Virus record (IMG/VR): IMGVR_UViG_3300035698_002928 | Coordinates: 1 to 23,423 of that record | Origin: a virus | Strand: one strand, 5' to 3' | DNA length: 23,423 nt | Shown: positions 2,516 through 21,657 of the stretch, piece after piece | Layout of the letters: every line of letters begins with the position of its first letter | Numbering within the stretch: the stretch's first letter is position 1 | Made by a program: the position numbers and the translations under genes | The notes under the pieces: model-generated | Told to the model about the DNA's origin: nothing | Databases searched by the model: none | What the model saw: the letters and a program-made list of their open reading frames with translations, nothing else

Positions 2516-2529
2516 TTTAATATATAAAA
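2516..2529 (+). promoter_or_regulatory. Candidate late promoter for gp6-like gene
   Basis: TTTAATATATAAAA lies in the 41-base gap between two genes. The TATATAA core (2521-2527) ends 20 nt before the ATG at 2548. The same word recurs upstream of other late genes here at nearly the same distance, and a gp55-like sigma factor is encoded in the window. It resembles the T4 late promoter TATAAATA. The assignment rests on pattern only, in a very AT-rich genome. Confidence 0.55.
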
Positions 2530-2547
2530 AAAATCGAACATAACTCA

Positions 2548-4398
2548 ATGAACAAATTTTTTGATTTTATAGAAATAACATATGATAAATTAGGTAATCA
2601 ATTAGAATATTGGTTAAAAGATACTTATCAAAAGTCTGGGAAATTATTTTCACATGCATCACCATCTGGTATGATAATGCATATTCAAAAAATATTATTT
2701 TCTAATAATATGGTTTATATAAAGAATTCCGTGAAACAAATGGATATTGAAACAACAACGAATTCAAGAATAATAATAAATCAGTCTAGAATATCTGGTC
2801 ATAATCCGAGTAGATCTATATCTGCAAATGGTACAATTAAATTAAAATTAAAAGTTGGGATTAATATTTTAAGTAAAATTAAAGGTGGTAAAATTCAAAT
2901 GATGAATAATACATTGATGAAAAATAAATCAAACCAAATGGATTATGTAATTTCTACGGGTGATTCAATAAAAAACATTTATGATGTGAATTCTTATACT
3001 GAATTATTTTTTAGTATTAAACAAGGTAAATATGAAGAACAGAAATATACTGGTGATGGTAAAAGAAATAAATCTGTAAAAGTTGTGGTTAATAGAAATC
3101 AAATAATTGACAATTTTGATTTTTCAGTTTATTATAATGGGATATCATTGAAGTCTGTTGATAGTTTGTATGATATGTTACCAAATGAAATGGCTTGTTA
3201 TACAAAAACTGGATTTGATGGTGGATTGGATATTTATTTTGGAACAGGTGATTATGGTTTTGTTCCTGAAATTGGTTCAATTATAACTGTTAGATATTTA
3301 TTAACGGATGGTGCAGATGGAAATATTTTGAATAATATAGTTAATGATTTTACATTTGAAGATAATGTTTATGATTCAGATGGAAATATAATAAATATGA
3401 ATGATTTATTTGATATTTATATTCATACTGATATAAATTTTGGTGTTAATTCTGAAAGTGTCGAATATATGAAATCTGTAATACCTCATGTATCTAGAAA
3501 TTTCGTATTAGCTTCTCCTGATCAATTTATATACCATTTAAAGAGATTAAATTTGTTTTCCAAAGTTAATGCTTTCAATCTTTTAGATGAAAATAATTTC
3601 AATAATAATAAATATATTGAGACATTTATAAAAGAAACATTTGGTGATACTGTTGATATTGAAAATACAAGAGAACAAATGACTAGATATTTTCCAACAA
3701 TATATGATAATCAAATATATTTATATTTAATTCCAAAAATTAAAAATTATTTTGTTGACGATTACAATTACTTTAATGTTCCATTTGATGTTTTTTATTT
3801 AGATGATAACGAGAAAGAAAAAGTGATGAAATATTTAAGAACAATGGGAATATTAAGTTTAACTACAAATGTTGTAATTATTCAACCGACTATATCATTA
3901 TATGTTATGAATATTTATATTAGAAGATATCAAACAGATGTTAAGGACAATATTAAAAATCAAATAATAGAAATAGTTTCTGATTATTTTGTTAATAATG
4001 AAAGATTTGATAGAATAGTTAAATCCGATATTATAAAAACTATTAAAAATCAAATTACATCTGTTGATAGTGTTAATGTAGAATTTATTAGTAAAAAGAA
4101 TGAAGATTATCATGGAGATGGTTTAAAAAGCAATAATATTAACCATAATGTATTAGAAGATGAAATAGTGTTAATAAAGGAAAAGAAAATATATAAGAAA
4201 ACACCATATAATCCAAATGCTGTAATAGGATTAGATCCAGTTCAAGGTGATATAGTAGTCGAAAATAATGAATTGCCAATATTAAGAGGTAGTTGGTATG
4301 ATAGAAATGGTGTATATTACAATGATGTTCCATCTACAAATGGGTTGAATTCTATTAATATAATTTGGACAGGAACAAATGAAAACAATATAAATTAA
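2548..4398 (+). CDS. 6: Baseplate wedge protein, T4 gp6-like (baseplate J family)
   Basis: This 616-residue protein is a probable baseplate wedge component, part of the ring that holds the contractile tail baseplate together. The best evidence is at residues 222-259: a Gly-Asp-rich stretch followed by YFGTGDYGFVPEIGS, then ITVRYLLTDGADGN. This matches the FGDG..G..P..G..I.V.Y..T.G..GN pattern shared by gp6 and baseplate J proteins. Length is close to T4 gp6 (about 660). Residues 440-530 form an alternating helix/strand region typical of the C-terminal domains. It has its own upstream promoter-like element and no Shine-Dalgarno. The next gene begins 1 base after its stop. Confidence 0.8.
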   Translation: MNKFFDFIEITYDKLGNQLEYWLKDTYQKSGKLFSHASPSGMIMHIQKILFSNNMVYIKNSVKQMDIETTTNSRIIINQSRISGHNPSRSISANGTIKLKLKVGINILSKIKGGKIQMMNNTLMKNKSNQMDYVISTGDSIKNIYDVNSYTELFFSIKQGKYEEQKYTGDGKRNKSVKVVVNRNQIIDNFDFSVYYNGISLKSVDSLYDMLPNEMACYTKTGFDGGLDIYFGTGDYGFVPEIGSIITVRYLLTDGADGNILNNIVNDFTFEDNVYDSDGNIINMNDLFDIYIHTDINFGVNSESVEYMKSVIPHVSRNFVLASPDQFIYHLKRLNLFSKVNAFNLLDENNFNNNKYIETFIKETFGDTVDIENTREQMTRYFPTIYDNQIYLYLIPKIKNYFVDDYNYFNVPFDVFYLDDNEKEKVMKYLRTMGILSLTTNVVIIQPTISLYVMNIYIRRYQTDVKDNIKNQIIEIVSDYFVNNERFDRIVKSDIIKTIKNQITSVDSVNVEFISKKNEDYHGDGLKSNNINHNVLEDEIVLIKEKKIYKKTPYNPNAVIGLDPVQGDIVVENNELPILRGSWYDRNGVYYNDVPSTNGLNSINIIWTGTNENNIN

Positions 4399-4399
4399 A

Positions 4400-4924
4400 A
4401 TGGATATATGTTTTAATAGTTTTGAAAAAATAGATGAAAGTATGCATATAGCTTCTAAAATAAAATTAAGAGATTCTATACATTCTATAGTAATAGATGA
4501 TTTACAACCAGGAGAAGAAATGGAATTACCAATTTTAAGTAAAAAATTATATGAAAAATTTAATATAAAGATATCTGCTGGAATATTAGAACAATTATTA
4601 TTTATAATGTGGTGGAGAAAAGACGATTATACTATTTTTAGAGATAAAGATAGAAAATGGTTAGATGTTTGGCCATGGAAAAAAACCATTGAAAGAAAGA
4701 AAAGAATAAAAGATCCACCATTAGGAAAATCTAAGAGAAAAATGAAAAAAGAAGAAGACGAAAAAAAACGTCAATTAAATTCTCCATATTATAGGAGAAC
4801 AATATATCCCACTATTAATCCAACTACACATAATCCAAATAAACATCATTTGAATAAAAATAGTAATATTGATGATGAAGATGATGATATTTATCAAACA
4901 AATAGATGGTGGCGAGGTTGGTAA
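4400..4924 (+). CDS. Hypothetical basic protein with acidic tail
   Basis: This 174-residue protein is not recognised. The N-terminal 90 residues look folded, with a helix-rich segment ending in a Trp-rich patch (MWWRKDDY, then WLDVWPWKK). Residues 95-125 are extremely Lys/Arg/Glu-rich, and the tail holds an acidic run (DDEDDD) and ends NRWWRGW. It follows the gp6-like gene by one base, so it is in the same transcript and is probably a small structural or assembly factor. The charged, low-complexity C-terminal half suggests a flexible binding tail. No catalytic motif is visible. Confidence 0.6.
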   Translation: MDICFNSFEKIDESMHIASKIKLRDSIHSIVIDDLQPGEEMELPILSKKLYEKFNIKISAGILEQLLFIMWWRKDDYTIFRDKDRKWLDVWPWKKTIERKKRIKDPPLGKSKRKMKKEEDEKKRQLNSPYYRRTIYPTINPTTHNPNKHHLNKNSNIDDEDDDIYQTNRWWRGW

Positions 4925-4939
4925 AAATATATATTTAAA

Positions 4940-5680: not shown

Positions 5681-7255
5681 TTATTTAACCCCTAAAACAT
5701 TAGCTGCTATATCAATTCCAGTATTTCCATATGGGTTGATGTTTCTATCATCACTATATCCAATGATATATTTGGCATAAATATCATTATCATCAAATCC
5801 TTCATCAACAAAATTTATATGTGGATATTCCTTTTCTAATAAATCGTTATGTTTTGTGCAACAATATATTAAACAATTGTGTTTTTTTCTAAACTTTTCG
5901 ACTGATTCTGACCATGAATAACAATATTCTGTTGAATTAGTATCCAATTTAATAAATACATCTTTATATTTTAAATCGAAATCAACCGAGCTGATATTAC
6001 CATTATTTAAATCTGTAATTTTAATAATCCAATTAGTATACCATTTTCTATTTGCAATTGACCATTGATCATTAGACATATCTAAACTATAAACTAATTC
6101 ATCTTTATCACCATCAATATAATCTACTTTATATTTAACATTTTTTAAAGGTGATGTTATACTAACTTTTGGACCAGAATGATAATCGATTTTAATTTCA
6201 ATATCTTTTTCAACTGGTTCTTTATAAATAATTTCAGAATTATCATAAATATCAATAATCTTATTTCTCATTGTTTCACTTGTGAAATTTGTTTTTATGT
6301 CGATTACATTAAAATAAATTTGTTCAAGTTTTTTTACAATAACACTCCAGTCATATTTTTTAGATGTTATTAAAGTTTCTTTTTTTAATGAATCATAATT
6401 TTCAATTGCAAATTTTAATTTATTAACAACATTATCAGTATGTCTTTTTGTTTTAACTAACCCACCTAATTCATCTACACCCGAATATGTTCCAACAATT
6501 GGTAATCCACATGATAATGATTCTAATAATGTTAAATTTGGATGTCCTGCTTCTAAATCGGATAAGTGTAAAAATATAGTGTGTCGATTATAAATTTCTA
6601 TTAATTCTTCTTCAGTCGGACTTTTAATAATTTCTAATTTATCATATTCTAATAAATCTTTATTAGAATCAAAATATGTATCATTAGATTCTGGACCAAC
6701 AATAGTTATAGGTAAATCCAATTCTTTAGCTGATTCAATTGCATATCTAAATCCTTTTCTATCGTTTGTTTCATTAAATAATAACCCATTAGATGCCACA
6801 CATAATAATTTATGTCCATTTTTTTGATAATTTTTATCAACATATAGTTCAGTATCTACACCATGAGGTAGATAGAACAATTTATCTGTGTCATTAAAAT
6901 AATCTATAAGATATTCAGCATGTGATATTGATATTATAGATCTTTTCATTGCTTTAAGATTTTCTTTATAACATAAAGATTTTTTACCCCATAAATAAGA
7001 GTGATGATCATGTAAAGAATAAATATATGGTTTTTTTGCTAGATATAAATCATCAAAACCTTGATTTGCAGTGTGTGAATGATATATATCATAATCTTTT
7101 TTAAAATCCCATGGCACATCAATATCAACTTCATGTCCCAATTTTTCTAATTGAATTTTATAATTCCATATTACTTTTTCAACTGCTCCCCAACCTTTAG
7201 GTGGTATTTCTACAATACCTGGATGTAGTATTAATATATTAAGTTTTCGTTTCAT
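5681..7255 (-). CDS. GT4 glycosyltransferase fused to a relic heptosyltransferase-like module
   Basis: This 524-residue protein probably transfers a sugar from a nucleotide-sugar donor. Residues 1-320 are a GT-B, GT4-type enzyme. They have a Gly-rich acceptor loop (PPKGWGAVEKV, 18-28), a donor-side segment KGFRYAIESAK (167-177), and EAGHPNLTLLE (235-245) in place of the usual E-x7-E. Residues 365-524 form a second module: a beta domain (VKYKVDYIDG, WSIANRKWYTNWIIKI) then VEKFRKKHNC and FVDEGFDDNDIYAKYIIGY. From memory this matches the middle of autotransporter strand-loop-strand O-heptosyltransferases. It stops where their second Rossmann domain would begin, and the usual SLGD loop is replaced near residues 440-447. 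It lies 2 bases downstream of another GT gene, in a leftward two-gene operon. Confidence 0.8.
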   Translation of the reverse strand: MKRKLNILILHPGIVEIPPKGWGAVEKVIWNYKIQLEKLGHEVDIDVPWDFKKDYDIYHSHTANQGFDDLYLAKKPYIYSLHDHHSYLWGKKSLCYKENLKAMKRSIISISHAEYLIDYFNDTDKLFYLPHGVDTELYVDKNYQKNGHKLLCVASNGLLFNETNDRKGFRYAIESAKELDLPITIVGPESNDTYFDSNKDLLEYDKLEIIKSPTEEELIEIYNRHTIFLHLSDLEAGHPNLTLLESLSCGLPIVGTYSGVDELGGLVKTKRHTDNVVNKLKFAIENYDSLKKETLITSKKYDWSVIVKKLEQIYFNVIDIKTNFTSETMRNKIIDIYDNSEIIYKEPVEKDIEIKIDYHSGPKVSITSPLKNVKYKVDYIDGDKDELVYSLDMSNDQWSIANRKWYTNWIIKITDLNNGNISSVDFDLKYKDVFIKLDTNSTEYCYSWSESVEKFRKKHNCLIYCCTKHNDLLEKEYPHINFVDEGFDDNDIYAKYIIGYSDDRNINPYGNTGIDIAANVLGVK

Positions 7256-7257
7256 AT

Positions 7258-10116
7258 TTAATTATTTTCATTTTTATATAAGAATTTACCATTATCACTT
7301 AATAATTTAATATTAGATTTATTTATATCAAAATAATCAGTATCAATAATTTCATTAGTTTCATTATCTATAAAGGTAATTTTTAATTCAATATTATCAT
7401 TATTTCCTAAAACTATTTTTTTATAAAAAATAGTTTCTTTTGTTATTTCCACATTAATAATATCTTCTAAAATATTATTGTTGTATTTTTTAACAACCAT
7501 TTTTCTGTTATCAATTTTATTACTAGTATTTAACCATAAAACTATTTCATCATCTTTATTTTCAACAGGTACAAGTGTTAAATACTCAACACCAGAAAAA
7601 AGATTTATATTTCCATTAAATAATTTATTTTCATCGGATTCTCTAATAATCAATTTATCTTTATAATTTTCTAATTTTTTATAAAAATATCTTTCAAGAA
7701 AATTGTCAATATTTAGATTTGTACATTCTTTATTATAAATTTCACTTGTTCTAGGGTTATCAAATATTTTTAACCATAAATCAACATCAATTATAAAAAA
7801 TACAGATTTTAGTACATCTAATCCATTATCATTAAATTTCATAAAGAATCCTTCTTTATCCTGTTTATCTATATCTTTTATTAAATTATTAATAGTTGAT
7901 AAATCTTTATTACTAAAAATAAAATCATAAGTAACATTTACAATTTTATCATAACCTAAAGATTTTGCCAATCTAATAGAATTTTCAATATTGTTTAATA
8001 CTGCCAAAGATTGATTTAATTTATCAGCGTTAGATAATTCATTGAGATTTACATCTATTCTATATTTATCGGTTTCATTCCAAAATTTTGTATATAAACT
8101 ATGTTTAATCATAGGATTATGATCATCATAAACACAATATTTTACCATTTTTTGAATATCATTATCTATTGGTATATGTGATGAAATTAAAATATCTTTA
8201 CCTTTTAATGAATTGATACAATCGATAGTAGTTTTCTTTTTGATCCCACTATTAATATATGTAGATAATATATATAAATTTTTAGATTCTTTTGGAAATT
8301 TAAATTTTTTAGTGAATGACAATTTGTTATTTCTGAAGAAATCTACATTAACATATTTCAAATCCTTAAAATGATCTACATTTACCCAAGTGTTAAATTC
8401 ATTTGAAATATTGACAACTGTTGAATAAAATTCAGATTTATTGTCTTTTAATTTTATGTTATATTTAACTGTTTTTGGTGTTGAATTTATTAAATTAAAT
8501 ATCAATTTATTTTCTTCAATATTATAATCAATATTTATTAGATTATTATCTTTATGAATTTTAGTGTCTTTATGAATTTTTTTATCTTTATCATTAGAAA
8601 TATATTCTAACCATTTAGTTGTTTCATCCCAACCATCTGTTCTATATTTAGAAAATAATGTATTTTTAAATGTTTTATTTATAAATAGAAGATATCCTAC
8701 TATCTTATATTTAATATTATTATCTGACATTTCTTTTATGATTTGTTTAATATCAGAAATTATATTATTATCAGATATGTGTATATATTGTTCATTTATA
8801 ATAATTAAAAAATCAAATAATGAAAATTCTTTTTCAATTATTTTTCTATATGTTAAATAGTTACTATATTCTTTTGAACCTAAACCATAAACTCCTAATC
8901 TATCAATATCATCAGGTCTTATACAATTTGATTTTGGTGGAATATCATTATAATCAATTATATCGCTTTTAACATAACCAATTTTATTATTAATTAAAAC
9001 ATTTTTTAGTGATTCATTATAATTATTTATTTGTACTACTCTAATATTTAATGATTCGTCAATTTTATCAACTTTGGGTATATCTTTAATTTCTAAATTT
9101 TTTTCAATTTTTGGAATTATAGAATTTTGTATGTGATTAGTTATTGAATCGTTTTTAAATAAAAATTCTTTAACTAATTTAGAATCATCAGATAAATCAC
9201 CAATCATATAAGTACAATCTGGATCATCATCATATTTTCCACAATAAACATCTAATGGAAATAAAAATAGAGGAATATCTTCTTGTAATGCTTCTTTAAT
9301 CACAAGTGGATTCAATTCTTTGTCATATCTAAACCCTCTTGATGTGAAAAGAAATAAATCACATGCTGTATAAAAATCATCAACATCAGATCTTTCACCC
9401 CATATAACACAATTATTTGGTTTGTTTTCCATAAGAGGTTTCCAATAATGCTCAAAATTTCCAGCTTGATTACCAACAAAATGAAATTTAATTTTTTCAT
9501 TTTCTAATTCTTTAGCAATTTCAAAAGCATATTTTTGGTTTTTTCTTGGTGTAAATAATCCAACATTTAAAATATGTTTATAATTAGGATCTAATCCTAA
9601 TTTTTTAAGTGCATTGTTTTTATCAACAGATGATCTCATTTTTTTATCAACTGGATATTCGACAACTTCAGTTGGTATTCCAAATTTATTAAATTTGAAA
9701 CAATTGTATTGACTAACAAAAATAAATTTATCTGGAAAAAATAATTTATTATCTACAACATAATCTGATGAATGTGTAGTTTCAAATATTTTATATTTTC
9801 TATCCTTTTTATAAATTTCTTTTGCAATATTATAATCCATAAACATTTCTGGAATTTCTTCCATATGAATTATATCTGGTTTTATATTATTAATAATGTC
9901 TAAAATTGCATTTTTATTATCACCTAATGTGAAGAAATTTTCAGATGGAATTAGATTTTTAATCCTATTTTTTTGAATAATAAAACTATGAGATATATTA
10001 GAATATTCTATTACATATATTTCATAATTATCTTTTATTAATTCAATTCTTTTTACTAAAACCTGAGGAGCACCACCAGTTGATAAGTGTGGTGTAATAG
10101 CTAATAATTTTTTCAT
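7258..10116 (-). CDS. Multidomain glycosyltransferase (GT4, GT25-like and GT2-like regions)
   Basis: This 952-residue protein heads the leftward operon. Residues 1-330 are a GT4-type enzyme: LSTGGAPQVLV (11-21), THSSDYV (114-120), LNVGLFTPRKNQKYA (183-197) and ELNPLVIKEAL (267-277), the E-x7-E-like motif. Residues 355-500 resemble the GT25/LPS-transferase fold (CIRPDDIDRLGVYGLG, then FSLFDFLIIINEQYI), but the expected acidic metal site is replaced by NEQ. Residues 530-610 look like a beta linker. Residues 613-830 resemble a GT2-like family (LYILSTYINSG; SLKGKDILISSHIPID; VYDDHNPM; AKSLGYDKIVNVTYDF), again with a weak metal motif. A C-terminal beta region follows. Only the GT4 unit looks clearly catalytic. 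The domain assignments beyond GT4 are from pattern memory. Confidence 0.75.
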   Translation of the reverse strand: MKKLLAITPHLSTGGAPQVLVKRIELIKDNYEIYVIEYSNISHSFIIQKNRIKNLIPSENFFTLGDNKNAILDIINNIKPDIIHMEEIPEMFMDYNIAKEIYKKDRKYKIFETTHSSDYVVDNKLFFPDKFIFVSQYNCFKFNKFGIPTEVVEYPVDKKMRSSVDKNNALKKLGLDPNYKHILNVGLFTPRKNQKYAFEIAKELENEKIKFHFVGNQAGNFEHYWKPLMENKPNNCVIWGERSDVDDFYTACDLFLFTSRGFRYDKELNPLVIKEALQEDIPLFLFPLDVYCGKYDDDPDCTYMIGDLSDDSKLVKEFLFKNDSITNHIQNSIIPKIEKNLEIKDIPKVDKIDESLNIRVVQINNYNESLKNVLINNKIGYVKSDIIDYNDIPPKSNCIRPDDIDRLGVYGLGSKEYSNYLTYRKIIEKEFSLFDFLIIINEQYIHISDNNIISDIKQIIKEMSDNNIKYKIVGYLLFINKTFKNTLFSKYRTDGWDETTKWLEYISNDKDKKIHKDTKIHKDNNLINIDYNIEENKLIFNLINSTPKTVKYNIKLKDNKSEFYSTVVNISNEFNTWVNVDHFKDLKYVNVDFFRNNKLSFTKKFKFPKESKNLYILSTYINSGIKKKTTIDCINSLKGKDILISSHIPIDNDIQKMVKYCVYDDHNPMIKHSLYTKFWNETDKYRIDVNLNELSNADKLNQSLAVLNNIENSIRLAKSLGYDKIVNVTYDFIFSNKDLSTINNLIKDIDKQDKEGFFMKFNDNGLDVLKSVFFIIDVDLWLKIFDNPRTSEIYNKECTNLNIDNFLERYFYKKLENYKDKLIIRESDENKLFNGNINLFSGVEYLTLVPVENKDDEIVLWLNTSNKIDNRKMVVKKYNNNILEDIINVEITKETIFYKKIVLGNNDNIELKITFIDNETNEIIDTDYFDINKSNIKLLSDNGKFLYKNENN

Positions 10117-10134
10117 TCAAGAATTCTTTTTTCT

Positions 10135-10148
10135 TTATTTATATTAAA
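10135..10148 (-). promoter_or_regulatory. Candidate late promoter for the leftward GT operon
   Basis: Read on the minus strand, TTTAATATAAATAA occupies 10148 down to 10135 and contains TATAAATA, identical to the T4 late promoter consensus. The seven-base core following TTTAA ends 20 nt before the ATG at 10116, the same spacing seen for rightward late genes in this window. Confidence 0.55.
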
Positions 10149-10181
10149 TTATTTCAATAGTTTAGTTTTTTAATAATTCAT

Positions 10182-10195
10182 TTTAATATATAGAA
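10182..10195 (+). promoter_or_regulatory. Candidate late promoter for the fibre module
   Basis: TTTAATATATAGAA lies in the divergent 98-base gap. Its core TATATAG (10187-10193) ends 21 nt before the ATG at 10215. With the element at 10135-10148 it forms a back-to-back promoter pair. No Shine-Dalgarno lies between it and the ATG. Confidence 0.5.
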
Positions 10196-10214
10196 TAAAT
10201 ATAATAATTATTTA

Positions 10215-10871
10215 ATGGGTTTTAGAACAGATATACTTTCAATAAGCGGTGATACATCAAGAATAATAATAAATAAAACTGGTAATGGTGGAATATTTTC
10301 TGATGAAGGTGGTTCATTATCAGTTAATAATGATGGAAAACTTATATATACAGAACCAACTGGTGGAGAGTGGTTTATAATTGGACCATCAGGGGGGACA
10401 AGTTTATCTGCATTCACATATGAAACAAATAATTTGATTATCAAACAAGATGATGGTCAAAATTTTCCTTTAGATTTAACAACAACATTAGATATTAGAT
10501 ATGCTGCGTCAGGTGCAACTGGTACAAGTGGAACAAGTGGAACAGATGGTACTTCAGGTGTAGATGGAACTTTTTATGGATCATCAGGTACAGATGGTAC
10601 TTCAGGTACAGATGGTACTTCAGGAACATCAGGAAGTAGTGGCACATCAGGGACTTCAGGAACAAACGGCACAAGTGGAATATCTGGTACATCAGGTATA
10701 TCAGGTACAGACGGTACATCAGGAACAGATGGTACATCAGGAACAGACGGTATATCAGGTACATCAGGTATATCAGGAACTTCAGGAACAGATGGCACAT
10801 CAGGTACTTCAGGAACAGACGGCACATCAGGAACAGATCCACTTGTACCAGCTGTTCCATTTCCTACGTAG
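10215..10871 (+). CDS. Collagen-like tail fibre protein
   Basis: This 218-residue protein is a probable trimeric fibre or adhesin segment. Residues 1-98 are a Gly/Ser/Asn-rich beta domain with a stretch typical of phage fibre heads (SLSAFTYETNNLIIKQDDG). Residues 100-208 are about 36 Gly-X-Y triplets, mostly Gly-Thr-Ser, Gly-Thr-Asp and Gly-Ile-Ser, with one GTFY interruption. It ends with a short Pro-rich tail (DPLVPAVPFPT) at a TAG. The -1 frame is already open at that point and continues into the lectin-like domain encoded downstream, so this may be the N-terminal part of a longer fibre protein. It starts behind a late-promoter candidate. Fibre location is inferred from repeat type and neighbours. 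Confidence 0.75.
   Translation: MGFRTDILSISGDTSRIIINKTGNGGIFSDEGGSLSVNNDGKLIYTEPTGGEWFIIGPSGGTSLSAFTYETNNLIIKQDDGQNFPLDLTTTLDIRYAASGATGTSGTSGTDGTSGVDGTFYGSSGTDGTSGTDGTSGTSGSSGTSGTSGTNGTSGISGTSGISGTDGTSGTDGTSGTDGISGTSGISGTSGTDGTSGTSGTDGTSGTDPLVPAVPFPT
10512..10838 (+). repeat. Gly-X-Y collagen-like coding repeat
   Basis: This is a 327-base imperfect tandem array of 9- and 18-base units of the type GGN-ACN-TCA-GGN-ACN-GAY, encoding about 36 Gly-X-Y triplets without prolines. Third positions vary between copies, so the protein pattern rather than the DNA is conserved. The antisense frames produce long artefactual ORFs rich in Val-Pro. Confidence 0.9.
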
Positions 10872-10969
10872 CTCCCGACTCAATATCAATAATAAATAAT
10901 TCACGTGGAACTGAACAAAGTAGATATTATTGTTCTTTTATACCTGCTTATAATGTTGCGGATGGTGGT

Positions 10970-11410
10970 ATGACTTTATATTATGATGATAATACTGCTT
11001 CAGATTATTCTTTAATAATGGATGCTCCATTTAATGTTGAGTATCAAAATGGATCAACCGCAACTGATGGTGTATATGCACAAGATCCAATAATGAGAAG
11101 TTTATCATCATGGTATGATGAAGGAACTGGTACTCCATATATAGCAGTTACAGGTTTAACTGTAGCATCAACTTATAAGTTTACTTTTTTTGGATCAAGA
11201 ACATCATTTACAGCAGAAGCTAGATATACAATTTCAGGTGGAACATCAGAAGATGGTACTTATGTTGATTTAGATTGTAATAGTAATTATTTGAATACAG
11301 TATCAGTTAGTAATATTTCACCATCATCTAGTGGTAAAATAGGGTTTTGGACATATTGGGAAAATAATCAAGCAGTTTTAAATGTATTAGAAATAGAAGA
11401 AGGATCATAA
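10970..11410 (+). CDS. Lectin-like beta domain, probable C-terminal part of fibre protein
   Basis: 146 residues from the first ATG, but the frame continues upstream with convincing protein sequence (APDSISIINNSRG, then YYCSFIPAYNVADGG) back to 10871, where the previous gene stops. The domain contains VTGLTVASTYKFTFFGSR and a C-terminal NVLEIEEGS, the same fold pattern as residues 25-200 of the next protein. It is probably a carbohydrate-binding beta-sandwich carried by fibres (inference). No Shine-Dalgarno or promoter-like element precedes the ATG. I favour it being the C-terminal half of the collagen-like protein, reached by a -1 shift or separated by a 1-base deletion. Its stop overlaps the next start (TAATG). 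Confidence 0.6.
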   Translation: MTLYYDDNTASDYSLIMDAPFNVEYQNGSTATDGVYAQDPIMRSLSSWYDEGTGTPYIAVTGLTVASTYKFTFFGSRTSFTAEARYTISGGTSEDGTYVDLDCNSNYLNTVSVSNISPSSSGKIGFWTYWENNQAVLNVLEIEEGS

Positions 11411-13329: not shown

Positions 13330-13412
13330 TACTAATAATAATTATTTTAAATTTGGAGTATTATCTTGGTGGTTATAAAAATGTGATGTCTGATGAACTT
13401 ATTAAAAAATAG
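13326..13412 (+). CDS. Possible 28-residue small protein
   Basis: A short ORF starts with an ATG overlapping the stop of the deacetylase-like gene (ATGA at 13326-13329), the arrangement of translationally coupled genes. It encodes a hydrophobic start (MILIIIILNLEYYLGGY) and a charged end (SDELIKK). It could be a small membrane-associated peptide or simply chance in AT-rich DNA. Only the overlap supports it. Confidence 0.3.
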   Translation: MILIIIILNLEYYLGGYKNVMSDELIKK

Positions 13413-13414
13413 AT

Positions 13415-13433
13415 AATTATATCTATAATTTTT
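13415..13433 (+). terminator. Weak AT hairpin after the fibre module
   Basis: An inverted repeat AATTATA / TATAATT with a 2-base spacer is followed by TTT. All pairs are A-T, so the hairpin is weak. It is placed where the fibre operon would end, before the next promoter-like element. Confidence 0.25.
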
Positions 13434-13448
13434 AAACATTTTCTAGTC

Positions 13449-13462
13449 AATATTATATAATA
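13449..13462 (+). promoter_or_regulatory. Candidate late promoter for the GT cassette
   Basis: The TATATAA core at 13454-13460 ends 19 nt before the ATG at 13480, matching the spacing of other late-promoter candidates. The upstream five bases (AATAT) deviate from TTTAA. A 12-base palindrome, TATTATATAATA (13451-13462), overlaps it. Confidence 0.4.
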
Positions 13463-13479
13463 AATAAAAAAACTAATTT

Positions 13480-15072
13480 ATGAAAGATAATTTAGTATTA
13501 ACTATATCTATAGGTGAATATTATGAAAAATTAGGTAAAGTTACATTACCAAGTATTAAAAAATATGCAAAGAAAATTGGTGCAGATTTTTCAAATATAA
13601 CTGAAAATGACCCAAATTATATTACTCAAAAATATAATAAATTTCATATTTATACACTTTTGAATAAATATAGAAGAATAATCTATTTAGATATAGATTT
13701 AATAATTAGAGAAGATTGTCCAAATCTTTTTGATATTGTACCAGAAACAGAACTAGGGATGTTAAACGAAGGTAAATATGCCCCTAGAACTGAATATATT
13801 GTTCAAGCTTCAGAATATTATAAAGAACCTTTAAAAGATTGGGATGGTAAATTTTATAATTCAGGCGTGATGGTTATATCAAGGAGACATAAACAAATGT
13901 TTAAGTTACCAAAAGGTATTGATTTTGTTGAAACTGATCAACCATATCTTAATTTAAGAATATGTAATGATAAAATTGATATGTTTCAATTAGATTATAA
14001 ATTTAATAGAATGGATATACTTGATAAAATTATAGGTATATCAAGATTAGATTCATATATTATGCATTATGCTGGAGCACCAAGAGATCAAATATTTAAT
14101 GTATTACTCGGTGATATTAAACAATGGGAAATAGATTCACCTGAATATAAATATGATCAAAATATTGCAATTGCTGTTTCAGCAGGTATGGGTGATCAAC
14201 TTTGTGCTGAGCCAGTTATTAGATATACACAAAAAATATATCCAGATGCAAAAATTTTTATTATTTCACATTTTAAAAGATTATTTGAACATTTAGATAT
14301 TCCAATTTATGATTATGATGAATGGAAAGGATTGAAAGATGCTGTTCTTACAATGCACTCATGTCCAGATGATGAACAGTCTCAAACTGATTTATCTCAT
14401 GTATTATTTCACCCTACAGATTTTGCATCTTTATCAATGATAAAGAGAACATTACCTGTTAAAGATAAAACAATAAAAATGAAAGTTGATATTGAAGATG
14501 TTTCAAGTATTGTTGATATGTTAAAAGATAAACCATCAGATAAAAAAGTTGTTTTAGTTCATGCTGGTAAATGGTGGCCTTCTAAAACATTTCCAGTTGA
14601 ATGGTGGCAAAAAGTAGTAGATAAATTATCAGAAAAATTAACTGTTGTGTTAATTGGTAAATATATTGAAAATAAGCAAGGTTATCAACCAGTTAAATGT
14701 CCAAAAGATGGAATGGATTTTAGAGATATAACATCATTGGGAGAAATGATTGCATTAATATCATTATCTAAGGTAACATTGACAAATGATAGTTCACCAG
14801 TTCATATTGCAGGAGCATTTGATAATTGGTTAGTTGCAATTCCAACTTGTAAACACCCTGATCATATGATTCCATTTAGAAATGGAGTTCAAACATATAA
14901 AACTAAAGTTTTATATAAAGAATTGTTATTAGATGATTTAGAAATCAGACATACTGAATCATATCCTGACAATATAGACAAAGTACCTGATGGTAAAACT
15001 TTATATGATTATTTACCTGATGTTGATACTGTTGTAAAAGAAGTATTTGATATTTATGATAATGATAAATAA
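13480..15072 (+). CDS. Bifunctional GT8-like / GT9 heptosyltransferase-like glycosyltransferase
   Basis: This 530-residue protein is a fusion of two glycosyltransferase types. Residues 1-215 are GT-A, GT8-like (glycogenin/galactosyltransferase type), with the metal-binding DxD in IYLDIDL (D71, D73), an FYNSGVMV stretch and MHYAG near residue 192. Residues 225-490 are GT9-like (heptosyltransferase fold): SAGMGD (234-239) for the phosphate loop, VLVHAGKWWPSKTFP with a following EWW, and TNDSSPVHIAGA (435-446) for the donor-site D/S-GPxH motif. Both domains keep their key motifs, so two sequential transfers by one protein are plausible. Its N-terminal domain is paralogous to the next protein. 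It is preceded by a late-promoter candidate and heads a four-gene cassette. Confidence 0.8.
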   Translation: MKDNLVLTISIGEYYEKLGKVTLPSIKKYAKKIGADFSNITENDPNYITQKYNKFHIYTLLNKYRRIIYLDIDLIIREDCPNLFDIVPETELGMLNEGKYAPRTEYIVQASEYYKEPLKDWDGKFYNSGVMVISRRHKQMFKLPKGIDFVETDQPYLNLRICNDKIDMFQLDYKFNRMDILDKIIGISRLDSYIMHYAGAPRDQIFNVLLGDIKQWEIDSPEYKYDQNIAIAVSAGMGDQLCAEPVIRYTQKIYPDAKIFIISHFKRLFEHLDIPIYDYDEWKGLKDAVLTMHSCPDDEQSQTDLSHVLFHPTDFASLSMIKRTLPVKDKTIKMKVDIEDVSSIVDMLKDKPSDKKVVLVHAGKWWPSKTFPVEWWQKVVDKLSEKLTVVLIGKYIENKQGYQPVKCPKDGMDFRDITSLGEMIALISLSKVTLTNDSSPVHIAGAFDNWLVAIPTCKHPDHMIPFRNGVQTYKTKVLYKELLLDDLEIRHTESYPDNIDKVPDGKTLYDYLPDVDTVVKEVFDIYDNDK

Positions 15073-15081
15073 CGTTGAAAT

Positions 15082-15708
15082 ATGAAATGTAATATTTATA
15101 CTTTAAATATAAACAATTATTTTCCTGAAATGATGGAAATTACTATACCATTAATGAAAAAATATGCAAATAAAATAGGTGCAAATTTTGTGGAAATTAC
15201 AAAACGAAAATTTCCAGATTGGCATATTCATTATGAAAAGATGCAAATCTATGAATTAGGAATGGATTGTGATTGGAATATATTTTTTGATGGTGATATT
15301 TTAGTTAATCCAAATATGTATGATATTACAAAATTAGATATAACAAAAATTTTACTAAAGGATGGATATAGAGCAGATATAAAATTTACAGATTTTATAA
15401 ATGATGGTAGAAATATGGGAATATCATCTTGTTTTTTAGCGTCTTCTAAATATTGTCATAAAATATGGACACCTTTAAATATAACACCAAAAAATGCAAC
15501 AAAACAAATTATTACTTCTAATGAAAATAAAAGAAAAGGAATAAATTCTGATTTTTATCAAGAAGAATTAGCTTTAAGTTATAATCTTGTAAAATATAAT
15601 ATAGATTTTAATGGTATACCAGAAAACTCATTATTTCATTCTTATGAATCCAATAAAAAAGAAGAAAAATTAAATGAAATTAAAATTAAATTAAAAGAAT
15701 GGATATAA
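15082..15708 (+). CDS. GT8-like glycosyltransferase
   Basis: This 208-residue protein resembles the N-terminal domain of the preceding gene: both have a Thr-[Leu/Ile]-Pro then KKYA-x-KIGA-x-F-x-x-IT segment near residues 22-41. The metal-binding site is FFDGDILVNP (D70, D72). It therefore looks like a compact GT-A transferase derived by duplication. The segment GMDCDWNIFFDGD fits a nucleotide-sugar binding strand. It starts 9 bases after the previous stop and its end overlaps the next gene by 10 bases, so it is in the same transcript. Donor and acceptor cannot be read from sequence. Confidence 0.7.
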   Translation: MKCNIYTLNINNYFPEMMEITIPLMKKYANKIGANFVEITKRKFPDWHIHYEKMQIYELGMDCDWNIFFDGDILVNPNMYDITKLDITKILLKDGYRADIKFTDFINDGRNMGISSCFLASSKYCHKIWTPLNITPKNATKQIITSNENKRKGINSDFYQEELALSYNLVKYNIDFNGIPENSLFHSYESNKKEEKLNEIKIKLKEWI

Positions 15709-16550
15709 CAGTTATTATTTCAACAAGAGGTAGATATCACACGACACTACCTCTTTGTTTAATGTCCATATTAAATCAATCATATTCACCAATTGAAGTT
15801 ATATTAGTAGATGATAATGATGTTAAAGAATTTTATAATATTCCAATTAATAAAGAAATTTTAAAATTATTTAAATTAAAAAATATTGATTTTTCATATT
15901 TTCATGGAGAATCAAAAGGTCAAGTTTATGCACAAAAAATAGGAATAGATAATTCAAAAACAGATTGGATATTTAGAACAGATGATGATAATATATTAGA
16001 AAGTAATGTATTGGAAATATTATCAGGGAACATAAATGAAAAAGTTGGTGCATTATCTGGAATCATAATTTCTAACATTTATAATAAATTGAGAAAAATA
16101 GAAATACATGGTGATATTTATAATAAAATAGAAGATATTTATTCATCATTTAATATACAAATGTGTGGAAATCAAGATAATAAAATTAAAAAAGTAGAAC
16201 ATTTGTATTCTAATTATCTTTTTAAAAAAGATATAATTAAAAGTGATATTACGTTAGATTTTTCACCAGCAGGTCATAGAGAAGATACTGTTTTTACTCA
16301 TGAAATATATAGAAAAGGTTATGATTTAGTAGTAAATCCAAAATGTATTATTTATCATTTGAATGAACAAAAAGGTGGAAATAGAACTCATCAAAATGAA
16401 CAAACAAATATAAATGAAAAGAAATTTATTCAAAAGATGAAAGATTGGGGAGTTATACCAAATAAATTAAAAATAGAAAAAGATGAAGATATGATATTTA
16501 CAATGCGTGGAAATACAAAATATTGGATTTTATCTAAAAATAAAAATTAA
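15699..16550 (+). CDS. GT2 family glycosyltransferase
   Basis: A 283-residue GT-A enzyme. It has the full GT2 pattern: N-terminal VIISTRGR (5-12), an EVILVDDND loop (about 33-41), a Gly-Gln-containing segment before the DxD, FRTDDDN (D95-D97) binding metal and nucleotide, and HRED (193-196) as the catalytic acidic motif. It ends with a basic Asn/Lys-rich tail. It probably transfers a hexose in the cytoplasm, acting with its cassette neighbours on one glycan (inference). It overlaps the preceding gene by 10 bases and is followed after 1 base by the methyltransferase gene, so coordinated expression is likely. Confidence 0.85.
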   Translation: MDITVIISTRGRYHTTLPLCLMSILNQSYSPIEVILVDDNDVKEFYNIPINKEILKLFKLKNIDFSYFHGESKGQVYAQKIGIDNSKTDWIFRTDDDNILESNVLEILSGNINEKVGALSGIIISNIYNKLRKIEIHGDIYNKIEDIYSSFNIQMCGNQDNKIKKVEHLYSNYLFKKDIIKSDITLDFSPAGHREDTVFTHEIYRKGYDLVVNPKCIIYHLNEQKGGNRTHQNEQTNINEKKFIQKMKDWGVIPNKLKIEKDEDMIFTMRGNTKYWILSKNKN

Positions 16551-17102: not shown

Positions 17103-17140
17103 ATTATAATTTTAATATATAAAATAAAATTATAATTTTT
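17103..17140 (+). terminator. Hairpin with T-tract after the methyltransferase cassette
   Basis: A perfect 12-base inverted repeat, ATTATAATTTTA (17103-17114) and TAAAATTATAAT (17125-17136), has a 10-base loop and is followed by TTTT. It lies 9 bases after the methyltransferase extension stop. The stem is all A-T, so termination strength is uncertain. The late-promoter word overlaps its 5' arm and loop. Confidence 0.45.
17111..17124 (+). promoter_or_regulatory. Candidate late promoter before a startless remnant
   Basis: TTTAATATATAAAA is identical over 14 bases to the element at 2516-2529. Its core (17116-17122) ends 19 nt before ATA at 17142, exactly where a start codon would be expected. 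Confidence 0.45.
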
Positions 17141-17141
17141 T

Positions 17142-17291
17142 ATAAAATCTAGAACCTTTGCGTATAATTCTACAGGATCAACTTTTTCAAATTTTAAACT
17201 CACTGGAAATATATCTTATACAAGACAAGGTGATGGTGCTTCATCAGAATATGAAATTATTACTGATACACCATTATTGATAAATATTTAA
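17142..17291 (+). pseudogene. Startless fibre/structural gene remnant
   Basis: The frame is open for 49 codons from ATA at 17142 to TAA at 17289, with no ATG, GTG or TTG near its beginning; an in-frame TAA lies at 17133. It reads IKSRTFAYNSTGSTFSNF and continues with Gly/Ser/Thr-rich residues to TDTPLLINI, similar in feel to the N-termini of beta-rich virion proteins of AT-rich phages. The upstream promoter word is intact and correctly spaced. The likely history is loss of ATG (ATG to ATA) and truncation of a former structural gene. Initiation at ATA is a less likely alternative. Confidence 0.4.
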
Positions 17292-17307: not shown

Positions 17308-17321
17308 TTTTATATATATAA
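17308..17321 (+). promoter_or_regulatory. Candidate promoter for gp15-like gene
   Basis: TTTTATATATATAA lies in the gap before the ATG at 17335, 13 nt after the TATATAA register. This is a looser match and shorter spacing than the other late elements. Confidence 0.35.
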
Positions 17322-18209: not shown

Positions 18210-18266
18210 AAAACGAATAAAAAATTATTATATATAGTTAAGAATTGTAATAATTTTTTTCGTTTT
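18210..18266 (+). terminator. Long imperfect hairpin after gp15-like gene
   Basis: The 5' arm (18210-18230) and 3' arm (18248-18266) pair over about 19 bases, including AAAACG/CGTTTT and TTATTA/TAATAA, with a 2-base bulge in the A-tract. The 17-base loop begins TATATAG, a late-promoter-like word. It lies 8 bases after the stop. The rest of the gap to 18301 is A/T-rich leader. Confidence 0.5.
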
Positions 18267-18300
18267 ATGCAAGATTGCAATTAAAAAATAATAAACAAAT

Positions 18301-19662: not shown

Positions 19663-19674
19663 TTTTATATATAA
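19663..19674 (+). promoter_or_regulatory. Possible promoter upstream of late sigma gene
   Basis: TTTTATATATAA resembles the late element but lies 98 nt before the ATG at 19773, far from the usual spacing. It would give the sigma-factor transcript a long leader. Confidence 0.25.
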
Positions 19675-19733: not shown

Positions 19734-19772
19734 TAAAAATAAAAAACGAAAAAAAAAATTTTTAATTGCATT

Positions 19773-20147
19773 ATGGCTAGATATTTAGAAGATAATGAAC
19801 TTTATTATGAAATAGTTTTATCAAAAGGAAAAGGTAAATTGACTCCGAATGCGGAGAGAATGCTAATTTTAATTGGTAATAGAATTATAAGAAAAAAAGA
19901 AAAATATTATAGAAATCCAGATGATAAAAATGATTGTCTTCATCAGGGGTTTTTAATGATGTTCCAAAATTGGAGAAATTTTAATGAAAAAAGGTATAAA
20001 AGTGCATTGCCATATTTCACAGAAATTTTCAAAAGAGCAATGGCGGGTGGATTAAAAGAAATTTATAATATAAAAAATAATAGGGACAAAGTTATTATGA
20101 TTAGTCTTGATTCTAGTAATAATGGACAAGGATTGCACAATATTTAA
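19773..20147 (+). CDS. 55: Late-transcription sigma factor, T4 gp55-like
   Basis: A 124-residue protein probably acting as the sigma subunit that directs host RNA polymerase to late promoters. Its sequence follows the gp55 family pattern: LTPNAERMLILIGNRIIRK (about 24-42), then DCLHQGFLMMFQNWRNFNE (54-72), KRYKSALPYFTEIFKRA (73-89) and LKEIYN. T4 gp55 has the matching [41 protein letters not shown]. It is shorter than T4 gp55 (185), ending NNGQGLHNI; the T4 C-terminal clamp-binding tail is not evident here. It is followed 1 base later by a small gene. The presence of a repeated TATA-type late element in the window fits the role. Confidence 0.75.
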   Translation: MARYLEDNELYYEIVLSKGKGKLTPNAERMLILIGNRIIRKKEKYYRNPDDKNDCLHQGFLMMFQNWRNFNEKRYKSALPYFTEIFKRAMAGGLKEIYNIKNNRDKVIMISLDSSNNGQGLHNI

Positions 20148-20148
20148 G

Positions 20149-20364
20149 ATGGAAGATAAAGAAAAAATATTGAGATTGAATTTACAAGAAGCAGAAAAAG
20201 AATATAATTCTGATATTGGCGAACATTATTTAGCAAGTGTGATTTTTAGTATTAAAGAACAAAGACTTATTAAAGTACAAAAGTGTTTGTTTGAACTTGA
20301 AAAATATTTATGGGATCAGCACCAAATTATCAGAAAAAAAACACTATTCCCCAAAATAAAATAA
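20149..20364 (+). CDS. Small helical hypothetical protein
   Basis: 71 residues from the ATG at 20149, immediately after the sigma-factor stop; an earlier in-frame ATG at 20107 lies within the sigma gene and encodes sequence unlike the rest. The product is almost entirely charged helix (EKILRLNLQEAEKEYNSD, then a Lys-rich end), with no motif recognised. It lies between the late sigma and gp4-like genes, spaced by 1 and 4 bases, so it is in one transcript with both. A small assembly or regulatory factor is possible. Confidence 0.6.
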   Translation: MEDKEKILRLNLQEAEKEYNSDIGEHYLASVIFSIKEQRLIKVQKCLFELEKYLWDQHQIIRKKTLFPKIK

Positions 20365-20368
20365 ATTT

Positions 20369-20875
20369 ATGAGTAAAAATATAGCACAGAAAGATGGGAA
20401 ATGGTATAAAGGAAAATATAAACCATTAAATATTGATAAATATGTAGGTGATATTGATGATATAGTATATCGTTCCAAATGGGAATACAATTTTTGTTAT
20501 TATTGTGATACTGAAGAACGTATCAAAAAATGGGAAAGTGAACCACCACGACATAAAATTCAATATGATGTTATGGAATATGGTAAATATAAACAAAAAA
20601 CTTATAATCCAGATTTTTGGATTCAAGTTGAAAAATTGGATGGTGAAATTGATGAACTTATAATAGAAGTTAAACCATATAAACAAACAATAGAGCCAGT
20701 TGAACCAAAAACAACTACTGTTAAAACTATAAGAAATTATGAATATGCTTTAAGACAGTATATTAAAAATATAAATAAATGGAATGCTGCTACTGAATAT
20801 TGTAAAAGAAGAGGTATACCTTTTTATGTTCTTACTGAAAAATATTTTGAAAGCAAACAAATAAAATTATTTTAA
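20369..20875 (+). CDS. 4: Head completion protein / endonuclease, T4 gp4-like
   Basis: 168 residues (T4 gp4 is 150). The family signature is strong: IDKYVGDIDDIVYRSKWE (22-39) aligns with ISKYRGDPKKITYRSNWE of T4, and WESE with WGSE. The endonuclease core is YNPDFWI (D82) and IIEVKP (E100, K102), a PD-(D/E)xK-type site, then PVEPK and KWNAATEYCKRRGIPFYVLTE near the end, as in T4. In T4 the protein is needed to finish heads so that tails can attach. It overlaps the next gene by one base (TAATG). Confidence 0.88.
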   Translation: MSKNIAQKDGKWYKGKYKPLNIDKYVGDIDDIVYRSKWEYNFCYYCDTEERIKKWESEPPRHKIQYDVMEYGKYKQKTYNPDFWIQVEKLDGEIDELIIEVKPYKQTIEPVEPKTTTVKTIRNYEYALRQYIKNINKWNAATEYCKRRGIPFYVLTEKYFESKQIKLF

Positions 20876-21612
20876 TGGGACAATTTAAAGATTATTGTAG
20901 AAAATTATTTGGTGAGTATAATAATAATATGGAATTAATAACGAAAGAATCTACAGAAAGAATTTTTCATTTAATAAAAAATCCTAATCATGAAGTATTT
21001 TTTGCTAAAAAATTATCAATCGGTAAATTTTATTTTATAAGATATGATTATAATGGTAATAAAATGTGGTGTCCAATTTTTATTATTGATGATAGATATA
21101 AACCAGATATTCAAAAAAGAATAATTTATGCTATAAATATTGATTATTTACCTTATGCATATAGAATTGTATTCTTTGATATATTATTTGAAAATTTTAG
21201 AAAAACTATAGATTATAATGTAAATAAATCAGATAATGAAGTTGAAAGATCATTAAAGATAAATTTTGAACTTATTTATAATTTATTAAGAAAGAATGGT
21301 GGTAATGAATATGCTATAACAGCTTATGATTATTCAAAAATAGATGGATTAAAAAAAGGTACACCAAAAATGTTTTTCGTATCTACCACATTTGTTTCAA
21401 GATTTGTTTTTATAAACACGAAAAAAGTTAATATGAAGAGCATGAAGGATTTATCCATAATAATGGATGATTATGATATTAAAAATAAATTAAATAATTT
21501 AATTAGTGAGTTTAATTCAATTAAAGAAGATTTGGATATTAATGATCAAAAACAATATTATAAAAAATTAAAAAAATTAGAAGATAAATATAAATTATTT
21601 AAAAATAAATAA
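20875..21612 (+). CDS. Hypothetical protein upstream of portal
   Basis: A 245-residue protein overlapping the gp4-like gene by one base. The central part contains GKFYFIRYDYNGNKMWCP (50-67), an IFIIDDRYKP segment, and INIDYLPYAYRIVFFDILF (about 88-106), which recalls a compact beta-plus-helix fold found next to head/portal genes in T4-like phages of AT-rich genomes. I cannot name the family with confidence. The C-terminal 40 residues are a Lys/Asp-rich helix. It lies between gp4 and the portal, suggesting a role in head or DNA-packaging assembly (inference). Confidence 0.6.
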   Translation: MGQFKDYCRKLFGEYNNNMELITKESTERIFHLIKNPNHEVFFAKKLSIGKFYFIRYDYNGNKMWCPIFIIDDRYKPDIQKRIIYAINIDYLPYAYRIVFFDILFENFRKTIDYNVNKSDNEVERSLKINFELIYNLLRKNGGNEYAITAYDYSKIDGLKKGTPKMFFVSTTFVSRFVFINTKKVNMKSMKDLSIIMDDYDIKNKLNNLISEFNSIKEDLDINDQKQYYKKLKKLEDKYKLFKNK

Positions 21613-21625
21613 TGGGACATATTTT

Positions 21626-21640
21626 TTTAATATATAATAA
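21626..21640 (+). promoter_or_regulatory. Candidate late promoter for portal gene
   Basis: TTTAATATATAATAA has its core TATATAA (21631-21637) ending 20 nt before the GTG at 21658. Flanking TTTTTTA (21623-21629) and TAAAAAA (21638-21644) form an inverted repeat with the core in the loop. The leader has no Shine-Dalgarno. Confidence 0.55.
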
Positions 21641-21657
21641 AAAAGAATCATAAATAA

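Follow-up and report, generated by a model that had tools for sequence, protein, structure and literature searches.

The subject of this analysis is a 23.4 kb stretch of virus DNA (IMG/VR virus record IMGVR_UViG_3300035698_002928, positions 1 to 23,423; 24.5% GC), called the window here, that carries T4-type structural genes. An AT-rich element, TTTAATATATA, recurs ahead of start codons in this DNA. We propose that the element, in its wider form WWTWATATATA, serves a clade of huge phages, with Bacteroidetes as their predicted hosts, as the -10 (TATA) box of late promoters. A short gp55-type sigma factor, consisting of region 2 only, would recognise the box together with host RNA polymerase and without a -35 element. 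Initiation would be T4-like, 5-6 nucleotides (nt) after the box. Hence, where about 20 nt (14-29 nt) separate box and ATG, the mRNA would have an A-rich leader of some 9-24 nt, in most cases lacking a Shine-Dalgarno sequence. Where 4-6 nt separate them, the RNA would begin at or very near the A of the AUG and so be leaderless. Gaps of 0-3 nt, where the ATG would precede +1, and of 10-13 nt, where the leader would be 5-8 nt, would be avoided. The window would hold the leadered form only, at four exact sites and one variant. For the reading as a whole (a T4-type late-promoter system with a divergent box, leadered and leaderless placements, a gp55-type reader and no -35 element) we estimate a probability of about 0.83.

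The exact form TTTAATATAWA occurs six times in the window, on both strands. Throughout, gap means the distance between the 11-mer's last base and the start codon. The sites discussed are as follows.

2516..2526, plus strand: predicted late promoter TTTAATATATA, 21 nt before ATG 2548 of a gp6-like wedge gene.
10138..10148, minus strand: predicted late promoter TTTAATATAAA, 21 nt before ATG 10116 of a glycosyltransferase open reading frame (ORF).
10182..10192, plus strand: predicted late promoter TTTAATATATA, 22 nt before ATG 10215 of a collagen-like fibre gene.
21626..21636, plus strand: predicted late promoter TTTAATATATA, 21 nt before GTG 21658 of the portal gene.
17308..17318, plus strand: predicted late promoter variant TTTTATATATA, 16 nt before ATG 17335 of a gp15-like candidate.
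13449..13459, plus strand: doubtful weak core AATATTATATA, 20 nt before ATG 13480.
17111..17121, plus strand: exact copy, a remnant or orphan promoter without a clear gene behind it.
19663..19673, plus strand: copy of the variant TTTTATATATA; the sigma gene begins 99 nt downstream.

Four of the six exact copies precede starts, with gaps of 21 nt (2548), 21 nt (10116, minus strand), 22 nt (10215) and 21 nt (21658). Exact matches at gaps of 20-23 nt were thus found in 4 of 20 gene upstream regions, while 3000 dinucleotide shuffles gave none (2973 times) or one (27 times). With a degenerate form and gaps of 14-29 nt, 5 of the 20 regions matched; the shuffle maximum was 3, reached in 8 of 3000. 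The plain number of copies is less telling. A degenerate 12-mer, with up to two mismatches, occurs 156 times in the window, compared with a mean of 123 in 100 shuffles (standard deviation 11, largest 153). Because this count just mildly exceeds chance, the signal in the window is carried by the position of the motif and not by its number.

The window's own genome is known from this record alone, and whole-genome motif tests were run on complete relatives. The nearest, W01 (LR756501.1, 735 kb), has a portal and a sigma factor that are both 64% identical to those of the window. Portals of W02 (LR745206.1), W03 (LR756502.1) and W04 (LR756504.1), all of 635-642 kb, are 48-51% identical, and that of W05 (LR756500.1, 462 kb) 36%. 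Al-Shayeb et al. assign their largest complete phage genomes to the Mahaphage clade, with Bacteroidetes as predicted hosts (PMC7162821); judged by length, W01-W04 are presumably among those genomes. Genes of the relatives were called as the longest ATG-initiated ORFs of 50-60 amino acids or more, which misses GTG starts such as that of the window portal. An alternative genetic code in W01 was considered and rejected, coding density barely moving on TAG/TGA readthrough (0.874, 0.877 and 0.882).

Exact copies of the motif outnumber copies of the motif reversed in W01 (110 to 21), W02 (91 to 22), W03 (92 to 18) and W04 (62 to 34). They are concentrated between genes: pooled over W01-W04, 300 of 355 are noncoding, in genomes where ORF calls leave 8.0, 8.5, 8.0 and 10.6% of the DNA noncoding. 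Set against the reversed control, the noncoding copies number 96/5, 80/7, 74/8 and 50/12, respectively. An unbiased scan for 9-mers in excess over their reverse upstream of genes ranked TTAATATAT first in W01, W02 and W03, and seventh in W04. When single changes were scanned in the four genomes, the exact motif gave 102 matches at gaps of 4-9 nt and 139 at 14-29 nt, compared with 2 and 1 reversed. This direction-specific excess, 241 to 3, is clearest in W01, a genome of 32% GC. The relatives also use T1A and A4T variants, hence the consensus WWTWATATATA. For A4T there are 37 + 48 matches against 1 + 2 reversed, while A5T has 7 in-position matches against 5 in the reversed control.

The reach of the motif ends with W01-W04 and the window's kin; in W05 the box is a changed one. 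Counted over whole records, copies and reversed copies number 23/31 in W05, 49/42 in Lak-B4, 7/6 in PTm1 and 0/0 in PAU. In the 250 of 550 kb of Lak-B4 (MK250023.1) that we scanned, the late motif was not in excess upstream of genes; upstream regions of the same stretch are dominated by TGTATCTTTG, which is a promoter word of the host type and is enriched at 25-40 nt from starts. W05 has the box TGATATATAA (25 copies against 1 reversed), and its short-gap class is absent. Two IMG/VR contigs near the window, G001 and G002, have raw counts of 8/9 and 9/4. Upstream regions in W04 hold a further word in strong excess, TTTTAAAACTTT (TTTTAAAAC occurs 27 times against 0 reversed), possibly another promoter class.

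The relatives also bear on individual sites in the window. The W01 ortholog of the 2548 gene has the same motif at the same gap of 21 nt. Orthologs of the 17335 gene have gaps of 16 nt in W01 and 5 nt in W02, W03 and W04. The 17308 site, whose A4T variant is common in relatives, belongs with the other motif sites. Ahead of the portal gene, TTTAATATA is present in 5 of the 16 relative rows listed (loci L010 and L018, which are one contig, L012, W03 and W04), and W01 and W02 have motif variants. No such motif was found in the portal upstream regions of the L009, L011, W05, Lak, PAU and PTm1 rows. Copies 87-99 nt before the sigma gene, like that at 19663, also occur in L009, L010/L018, L016 and L011, and are not listed for L012 and L013. 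Within 160 nt upstream of the sigma gene there is one copy in W04 and none in W01, W02, W03 or W05. The sequence ATGCAA, 30 nt past a motif at 18226 (window 18226-18284), recurs in L009, L010/L018, L012 and L013; it is a possible short leader reading frame.

A first-pass annotation, made from the letters of the window, had read these elements as a late-promoter regulon. Its elements before 2548, 10116, 10215 and 21658 are all exact motifs placed as no shuffle reproduced. The looser element that it placed before 13480 does have a core at gap 20, but the poor support for A5T in relatives keeps this site doubtful. It also reported an exact copy ahead of a startless remnant at 17142. That copy exists, at 17111, but no clear gene lies behind it: a stretch of 45 nt holds no ATG, 213 nt separate the copy from the called ATG gene that follows, and a 40-amino-acid TTG frame starts at 17158. 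The frame from 17142 found no better relative than an E-value (E) of 0.40 among the metagenome loci and five genomes compared. The sixth exact copy, at 4559, is inside the gene 4400-4924. Weaker copies had been taken to mark the limit of the pattern. Those at 18226/18231, 64 nt from the next called gene (18301), and at 19663, 99 nt off, stay unassigned, but 17308 fits at gap 16. The regulon reading itself gains support from the noncoding bias, the non-random distances and the structural-gene link described below. A motif search against controls had been suggested at the same stage; run in the complete relatives, it gave the excess over reversed copies reported above. Nor was the motif equally frequent inside genes or at random distances from starts, with 300 of 355 copies in the 8-11% of DNA that is noncoding.

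Late promoters of the T4 type serve structural genes in preference to those for replication. We labelled genes via T4 and PTm1 proteins with iterated profiles, keeping the best match per label and genome. The structural versus replication count is limited to matches with E of at most 1e-30 and excludes gp2. At gaps of 4-35 nt, the extended motif was found ahead of 23 structural gene cases out of 48, compared with 6 out of 61 for replication (p 9e-6). For the core WATATATA the numbers are 35 of 48 and 8 of 61 (p 2e-10), and walking back along operons gives 31 of 48 and 14 of 61. Late timing of the genes behind the box would fit this pattern.

Other genes of the relatives have a host-type word, TAnnTTTG; the Bacteroidetes housekeeping promoter consensus is TTTG/TANNTTTG (PMC6847099). 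It was also found de novo, as TATATTTGT, in W02-W04. In these three genomes, where co-occurrence was computed, the late motif and host-type TATNTTTG come together in 2 of 915, 3 of 950 and 3 of 907 genes (8 of 2772 in total), while arithmetic on the same table predicts about 15, 12 and 8. The genes behind the host-type word are perhaps the early ones. Among the 20 genes of the window, none has the word within 60 nt of its start.

The motif has two preferred distances from the start codon. Across 3767 genes of W01-W04, the full motif WWTWATATATA stands 4-9 nt before 290 genes and 14-35 nt before 322, with little between. Pooled counts, with reversed controls in brackets, are 12 (39) at 0-3 nt, 290 (19) at 4-9 nt, 8 (8) at 10-13 nt and 312 (87) at 14-29 nt. 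Within the short class, 116 genes have a gap of 4 nt, 100 of 5 nt, 30 of 6 nt and 44 of 7-9 nt. The bimodality does not depend on ORF calling, for it persists if each exact noncoding site is simply paired with the ATG that comes next. It is also seen in metagenome loci that encode a gp55 relative. Of 348 relatives, 80 were kept and 78 of these used (all except L007 and L008), and 57 loci were left after removal of near-duplicates; these have 64 sites against 2 reversed at 4-9 nt, 2 against 3 at 10-13 nt and 89 against 15 at 14-29 nt. Sites in the window have the longer distance only. Other contigs near it do have short-class sites, at L018:1639 (gap 4) and L015:6990 (gap 6). Hence, the single fixed distance proposed in the first-pass annotation describes the clustered gaps of the window but is half of the rule. 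Its leaders of 13-15 nt were rightly short; with +1 placed 5-6 nt past the 11-mer, a gap of 21 would leave about 16-17 nt.

We think that the short class is best read as leaderless mRNA, because the predicted +1 coincides with the A of the ATG. Leadered sites have a conserved A at positions 16-19, which is where the A of the ATG falls in the 4-6 nt class; in W01, 94% of the leadered class has A at position 17. Of 246 sites in the 4-6 nt class, 191 have T or C just before that A. When both members of a reciprocal-best ortholog pair are in the short class, 28 of 36 pairs start in register from the N-terminus (445 of 719 without the motif). One ortholog pair, 67% identical and aligned residue 1 to residue 1, has gaps of 4 and 27 nt. 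Host-type words behave likewise. At 3-9 nt, TATNTTTG precedes 39, 24 and 15 genes in W02-W04, compared with 2, 1 and 0 reversed (3 and 0 in W01). This implies that leaderless mRNAs may arise from host-type promoters too, and the two-distance rule seems general to the mRNAs of these phages, beyond the late sigma.

The promoter reading could be right and the 4-6 nt class nonetheless leadered, through another promoter upstream. Consistent with this, Flavobacterium johnsoniae mRNAs are mostly leadered, without Shine-Dalgarno sites, and 87% of its predicted transcripts have leaders longer than 10 nt (PMC6847099). Furthermore, some short-class starts may be wrong, because pairs of mixed class are less often in register (just 14 of 34). 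Evidence against such leaders comes from the sharp peak at 4-5 nt (216 of 290), the depleted zone at 0-3 nt, the T or C before the A and the matching peak of host-type words. In addition, 231 of the 290 short-class genes have no other Met within 20 residues. We consider upstream leadering unlikely, though deserving of some weight.

The proposed reader is encoded in the window itself.

19773..20147, plus strand: gp55-type late sigma, sigma region 2 only, 124 amino acids; phrog_234, E 0.0015.

Orthologs of 121-134 amino acids are present in all five complete relatives, at 40-64% identity (47-64% in W01-W04, 40% in W05). They match the 'late sigma' family phrog_234 more strongly (E 7.3e-13 for W05, 1.9e-7 for W02). 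A structure model built from 49 sequences has a predicted local distance difference test (pLDDT) score of 83.5; an earlier model, from 8 sequences, was poor (55.8). Among solved structures, the model fits T4 gp55 best (7d7c_F, from the gp55-dependent open complex), with Z 14.3 over 106 residues and a root-mean-square deviation of 1.9, although the aligner warns that helical models reach Z of about 14 by common arrangement; the next match has Z 10.4. As modelled, the protein shows a gp55-like fold, and the ortholog matches to phrog_234 bear out the identity assigned at first pass. That gp55 itself reads the motif we infer, since each of the five relatives has at least one other protein with sigma region 2. 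In W05, a gp55 of 40% identity and the changed box TGATATATAA occur together, which is consistent with co-evolution of box and gp55.

Compared with T4 gp55, the window protein lacks about 60 residues, most of them from the C-terminal half. The long C-terminal part of the T4 type is absent and a short conserved tail, ...G.GLHNI, is present. The polymerase C-termini that we read do not resemble this tail, and a phmmer route found no gp45 homolog. A short form could suffice, because C-terminally cut T4 gp55 still supports basal transcription (PMC7892883). This raises the question of whether late transcription is still tied to the replication clamp here. A review of T4 describes the clamp link as unsettled for T4 relatives (PMC2988020).

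Alternatively, the box could be a phage promoter element read by another phage sigma, ECF-like by length and sequence, in place of gp55. Candidates exist: besides gp55, sigma region 2 scores above the cut-off once each in W01, W02 and W03, twice in W04 (with one more below) and four times in W05. Those in W02, W03 and W04 include ORFs of 197-201 amino acids, and that of W02 matches the phage sigma family phrog_1740 (E 3e-21). Sigma factors with region 4 usually need a -35 block. Our logos show no -35 block, although region 4 was not searched for in those sigmas; they derive from 26 + 50 sites in W01 and 75 + 66 in W02 and W03, and show just a weak A-tract, some 13-17 nt upstream of the box. 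The motif also goes with gp55 proteins of 47-64% identity and changes where identity falls to 40%. The association with structural genes fits gp55 as well. We regard another reader as improbable.

Several observations weigh against the proposed late-promoter system. Of the 48 structural cases, 25 lack the extended motif at gaps of 4-35 nt. In W01-W04, the major capsid and protease genes have no extended box and at most a bare ATATATA core (note that the W04 protease start looks misplaced). Some replication genes do carry the motif, including a uvsX-like gene in W02, W03 and W04. The extended motif has its own background, with 115 reversed matches against 621 over 3767 genes and 5 of 48 structural cases reversed. 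The core alone is near-palindromic, and its reversed control reaches 21 of the 48. The six loci closest to the window have 48 genes; among these, the long class has 8 sites against 2 reversed and the short class has none. The register of mixed-class pairs, mentioned above, belongs here too. Leaderlessness is not special to gp55, because host-type words keep the same two distances. For the sigma itself, Foldseek also ranks T4 gp55 first, but with E 0.009. An hhalign comparison with T4 gp55 is weak (probability 22%, E 0.001), the Sigma70_r2 match is under the cut-off, and a profile search of PDB sequences with the sigma protein found no sigma.

That the motif acts in RNA, as a translation-initiation or processing element, is suggested by its closeness to start codons. 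A single ribosome-binding element would hardly account for two distances that differ by about 15 nt, and the host-type promoter word TATNTTTG keeps the same two. In addition, divergent pairs fit promoters: the 10138 and 10182 sites of the window diverge, as do those at 101421 and 101461 in W01. We hold an RNA element to be very improbable. An artefact of AT composition, for which the mild 12-mer excess and the non-zero reversed controls of AT-rich genomes such as W04 might speak, is refuted by the positional shuffles (the window's match reached in 0 of 3000) and the reversed-motif controls (241 against 3, clearest at 32% GC).

Many proteins behind the late motif start alike (MKHLKKYNES, MKYLKTYKLFES, MIKDYFTYIKES). 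Large sets of otherwise different proteins in W01-W04 share the N-terminus MK[HY]LK.[YF]NES and variants of it, and many are clustered in W03, for example at about 10-32 kb. A loose T4-like pattern fits 108 of 995, 133 of 915, 157 of 950 and 78 of 907 proteins in W01-W04, compared with shuffle means of 27, 21, 22 and 21. In W05, it fits 44 of 663 (16 in shuffles), and these are not linked to the motif. A tighter version, MK[HY][LI]K.Y, fits 2, 81, 100 and 34 proteins of W01-W04, where about 0.5 are expected. In W02-W04, the N-terminal pattern is found behind late words in 56 of 168, 63 of 164 and 41 of 109 cases, and behind host-type words in 2 of 79, 5 of 68 and 2 of 61. Note that the patterns were devised after viewing the data, so p-values are optimistic. 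T4 IPII begins MKTYQEFIAEA, and late proteins of the relatives often start like IPII or IPIII. PAU depositors label two proteins, starting MKSLTNLYENKLNEAS and MKTISKLYEAKLNEAS, as internal capsid proteins. All five relatives have a gp21-type protease, by iterated profiles. Judged by sequence, this suggests that the shared N-terminus is a capsid-targeting peptide and the proteins packaged cargo. Among the 20 proteins of the window, the loose pattern fits just the baseplate wedge at 2548; this match is most likely accidental and shows that there are false positives.

Taken furthest, these phages would have a two-setting architecture for late and host-type boxes alike, in which mRNAs start either at the AUG or with a leader of about 9-24 nt, and intermediates are avoided. 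Leaderless translation would be regular for hundreds of genes in the four genomes, with orthologs switching between settings. Late proteins would be enriched for a capsid-targeting N-terminus, and tens to more than 100 different ones may enter the head, to be injected. We give this wider picture an even chance.

Other genes of the window mentioned above, or adjoining them, are as follows.

2548-4398, plus strand: gp6-like baseplate wedge (phrog_219, E 8e-18).
7258-10116, minus strand: glycosyltransferase ORF (Pfam PF00534, E 1e-11).
10215-10871, plus strand: collagen-like tail fibre ORF.
ATG 13480: glycosyltransferase ORF (Pfam Glyco_transf_9 and Glyco_transf_8).
ATG 17335, plus strand: gp15-like tail-sheath stabiliser candidate (gp15 Pfam E 0.0018, under the cut-off).
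20369-20875: gp4-like head-closure protein (phrog_218, E 6e-37).
20875-21612: gp2-like, a weak match (E 0.0017).
GTG 21658 onward, plus strand: gp20-like portal protein.

The structural module is split by glycosyltransferase ORFs and tail-fibre-like genes at 5681-16550. Pfam glycosyltransferase matches fall on the ORFs at 5681, 7258, 13480 and 15699; a PHROGs search with 7258-10116 found no match. The portal ORF (21658-23421), which begins with GTG, has a long GGGQDFGGG-type repeat at its end, running off the record. Gly-rich repeats likewise end the W01 portal gene.

With about 900 called genes per genome, the motif offers a route to late genes from sequence alone. It may also help to predict virion-associated proteins and to infer transcription starts. 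The two distances predict leaderless translation in Bacteroidetes. In the paper library searched, we found no promoter map for phages of 634-735 kb. On Mahaphage promoters it held just the founding genome paper, and the listings for late promoters, for gp55 and for phage mRNAs without leaders included no such map. No match listed for TTTAATATA concerned phages.

The closest known system is that of T4 late promoters (PMC2988020, PMC7892883). In both, a single TATA box of the 8-bp type lies about one helical turn before the known or predicted +1, there is no -35 conservation, a sigma region 2 protein is or would be the reader, late structural genes are served and both strands are used. Position -13 in T4 is the first base of the 8-bp box (PMC2988020); hence, T4 +1 is 5 nt after the box. 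The core here is AATATATA, whereas that of T4 is TATAAATA (6 of 8 identical), and a conserved TTT is added. Tried as the box here, TATAAATA failed: 44 of 253 copies in W01 are noncoding (8% of the genome is) and there is no distance peak. The sigma factors also differ, with 121-134 amino acids here and 185 in T4 gp55. Finally, the second placement, 4-9 nt from the ATG, has no T4 counterpart. In 124 of 169 kb of T4, 17 TATAAATA sites lie within 60 nt of an ATG, at gaps of 13-29 nt, and 0 of the 17 lie at 4-9 nt.

That second placement has the geometry of bacterial leaderless genes, in which a TA box some 10 bp ahead of the start codon is taken as a sign of leaderlessness (PMC3160421). Unlike in those genes, phage-type and host-type boxes are both used, beside a leadered mode in the same genomes. 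Leaderless phage mRNAs are not new as such, since phage transcripts are often leaderless according to the AR9 paper (PMC5312081). The word of the Bacteroidetes housekeeping promoter (PMC6847099) precedes other genes of the relatives, at the same two distances in W02-W04, but the late box is a different box. T4 internal proteins with a capsid-targeting sequence (PMC3012670) have an N-terminus similar to that of the relatives' late proteins. The numbers differ: 78-157 loose-pattern proteins per genome in W01-W04, and three annotated internal virion proteins in the stretch of T4 that we read. What appears to be new is that several of the largest phages known have a probable late system of the T4 type in which the box has diverged and some mRNAs would be leaderless.

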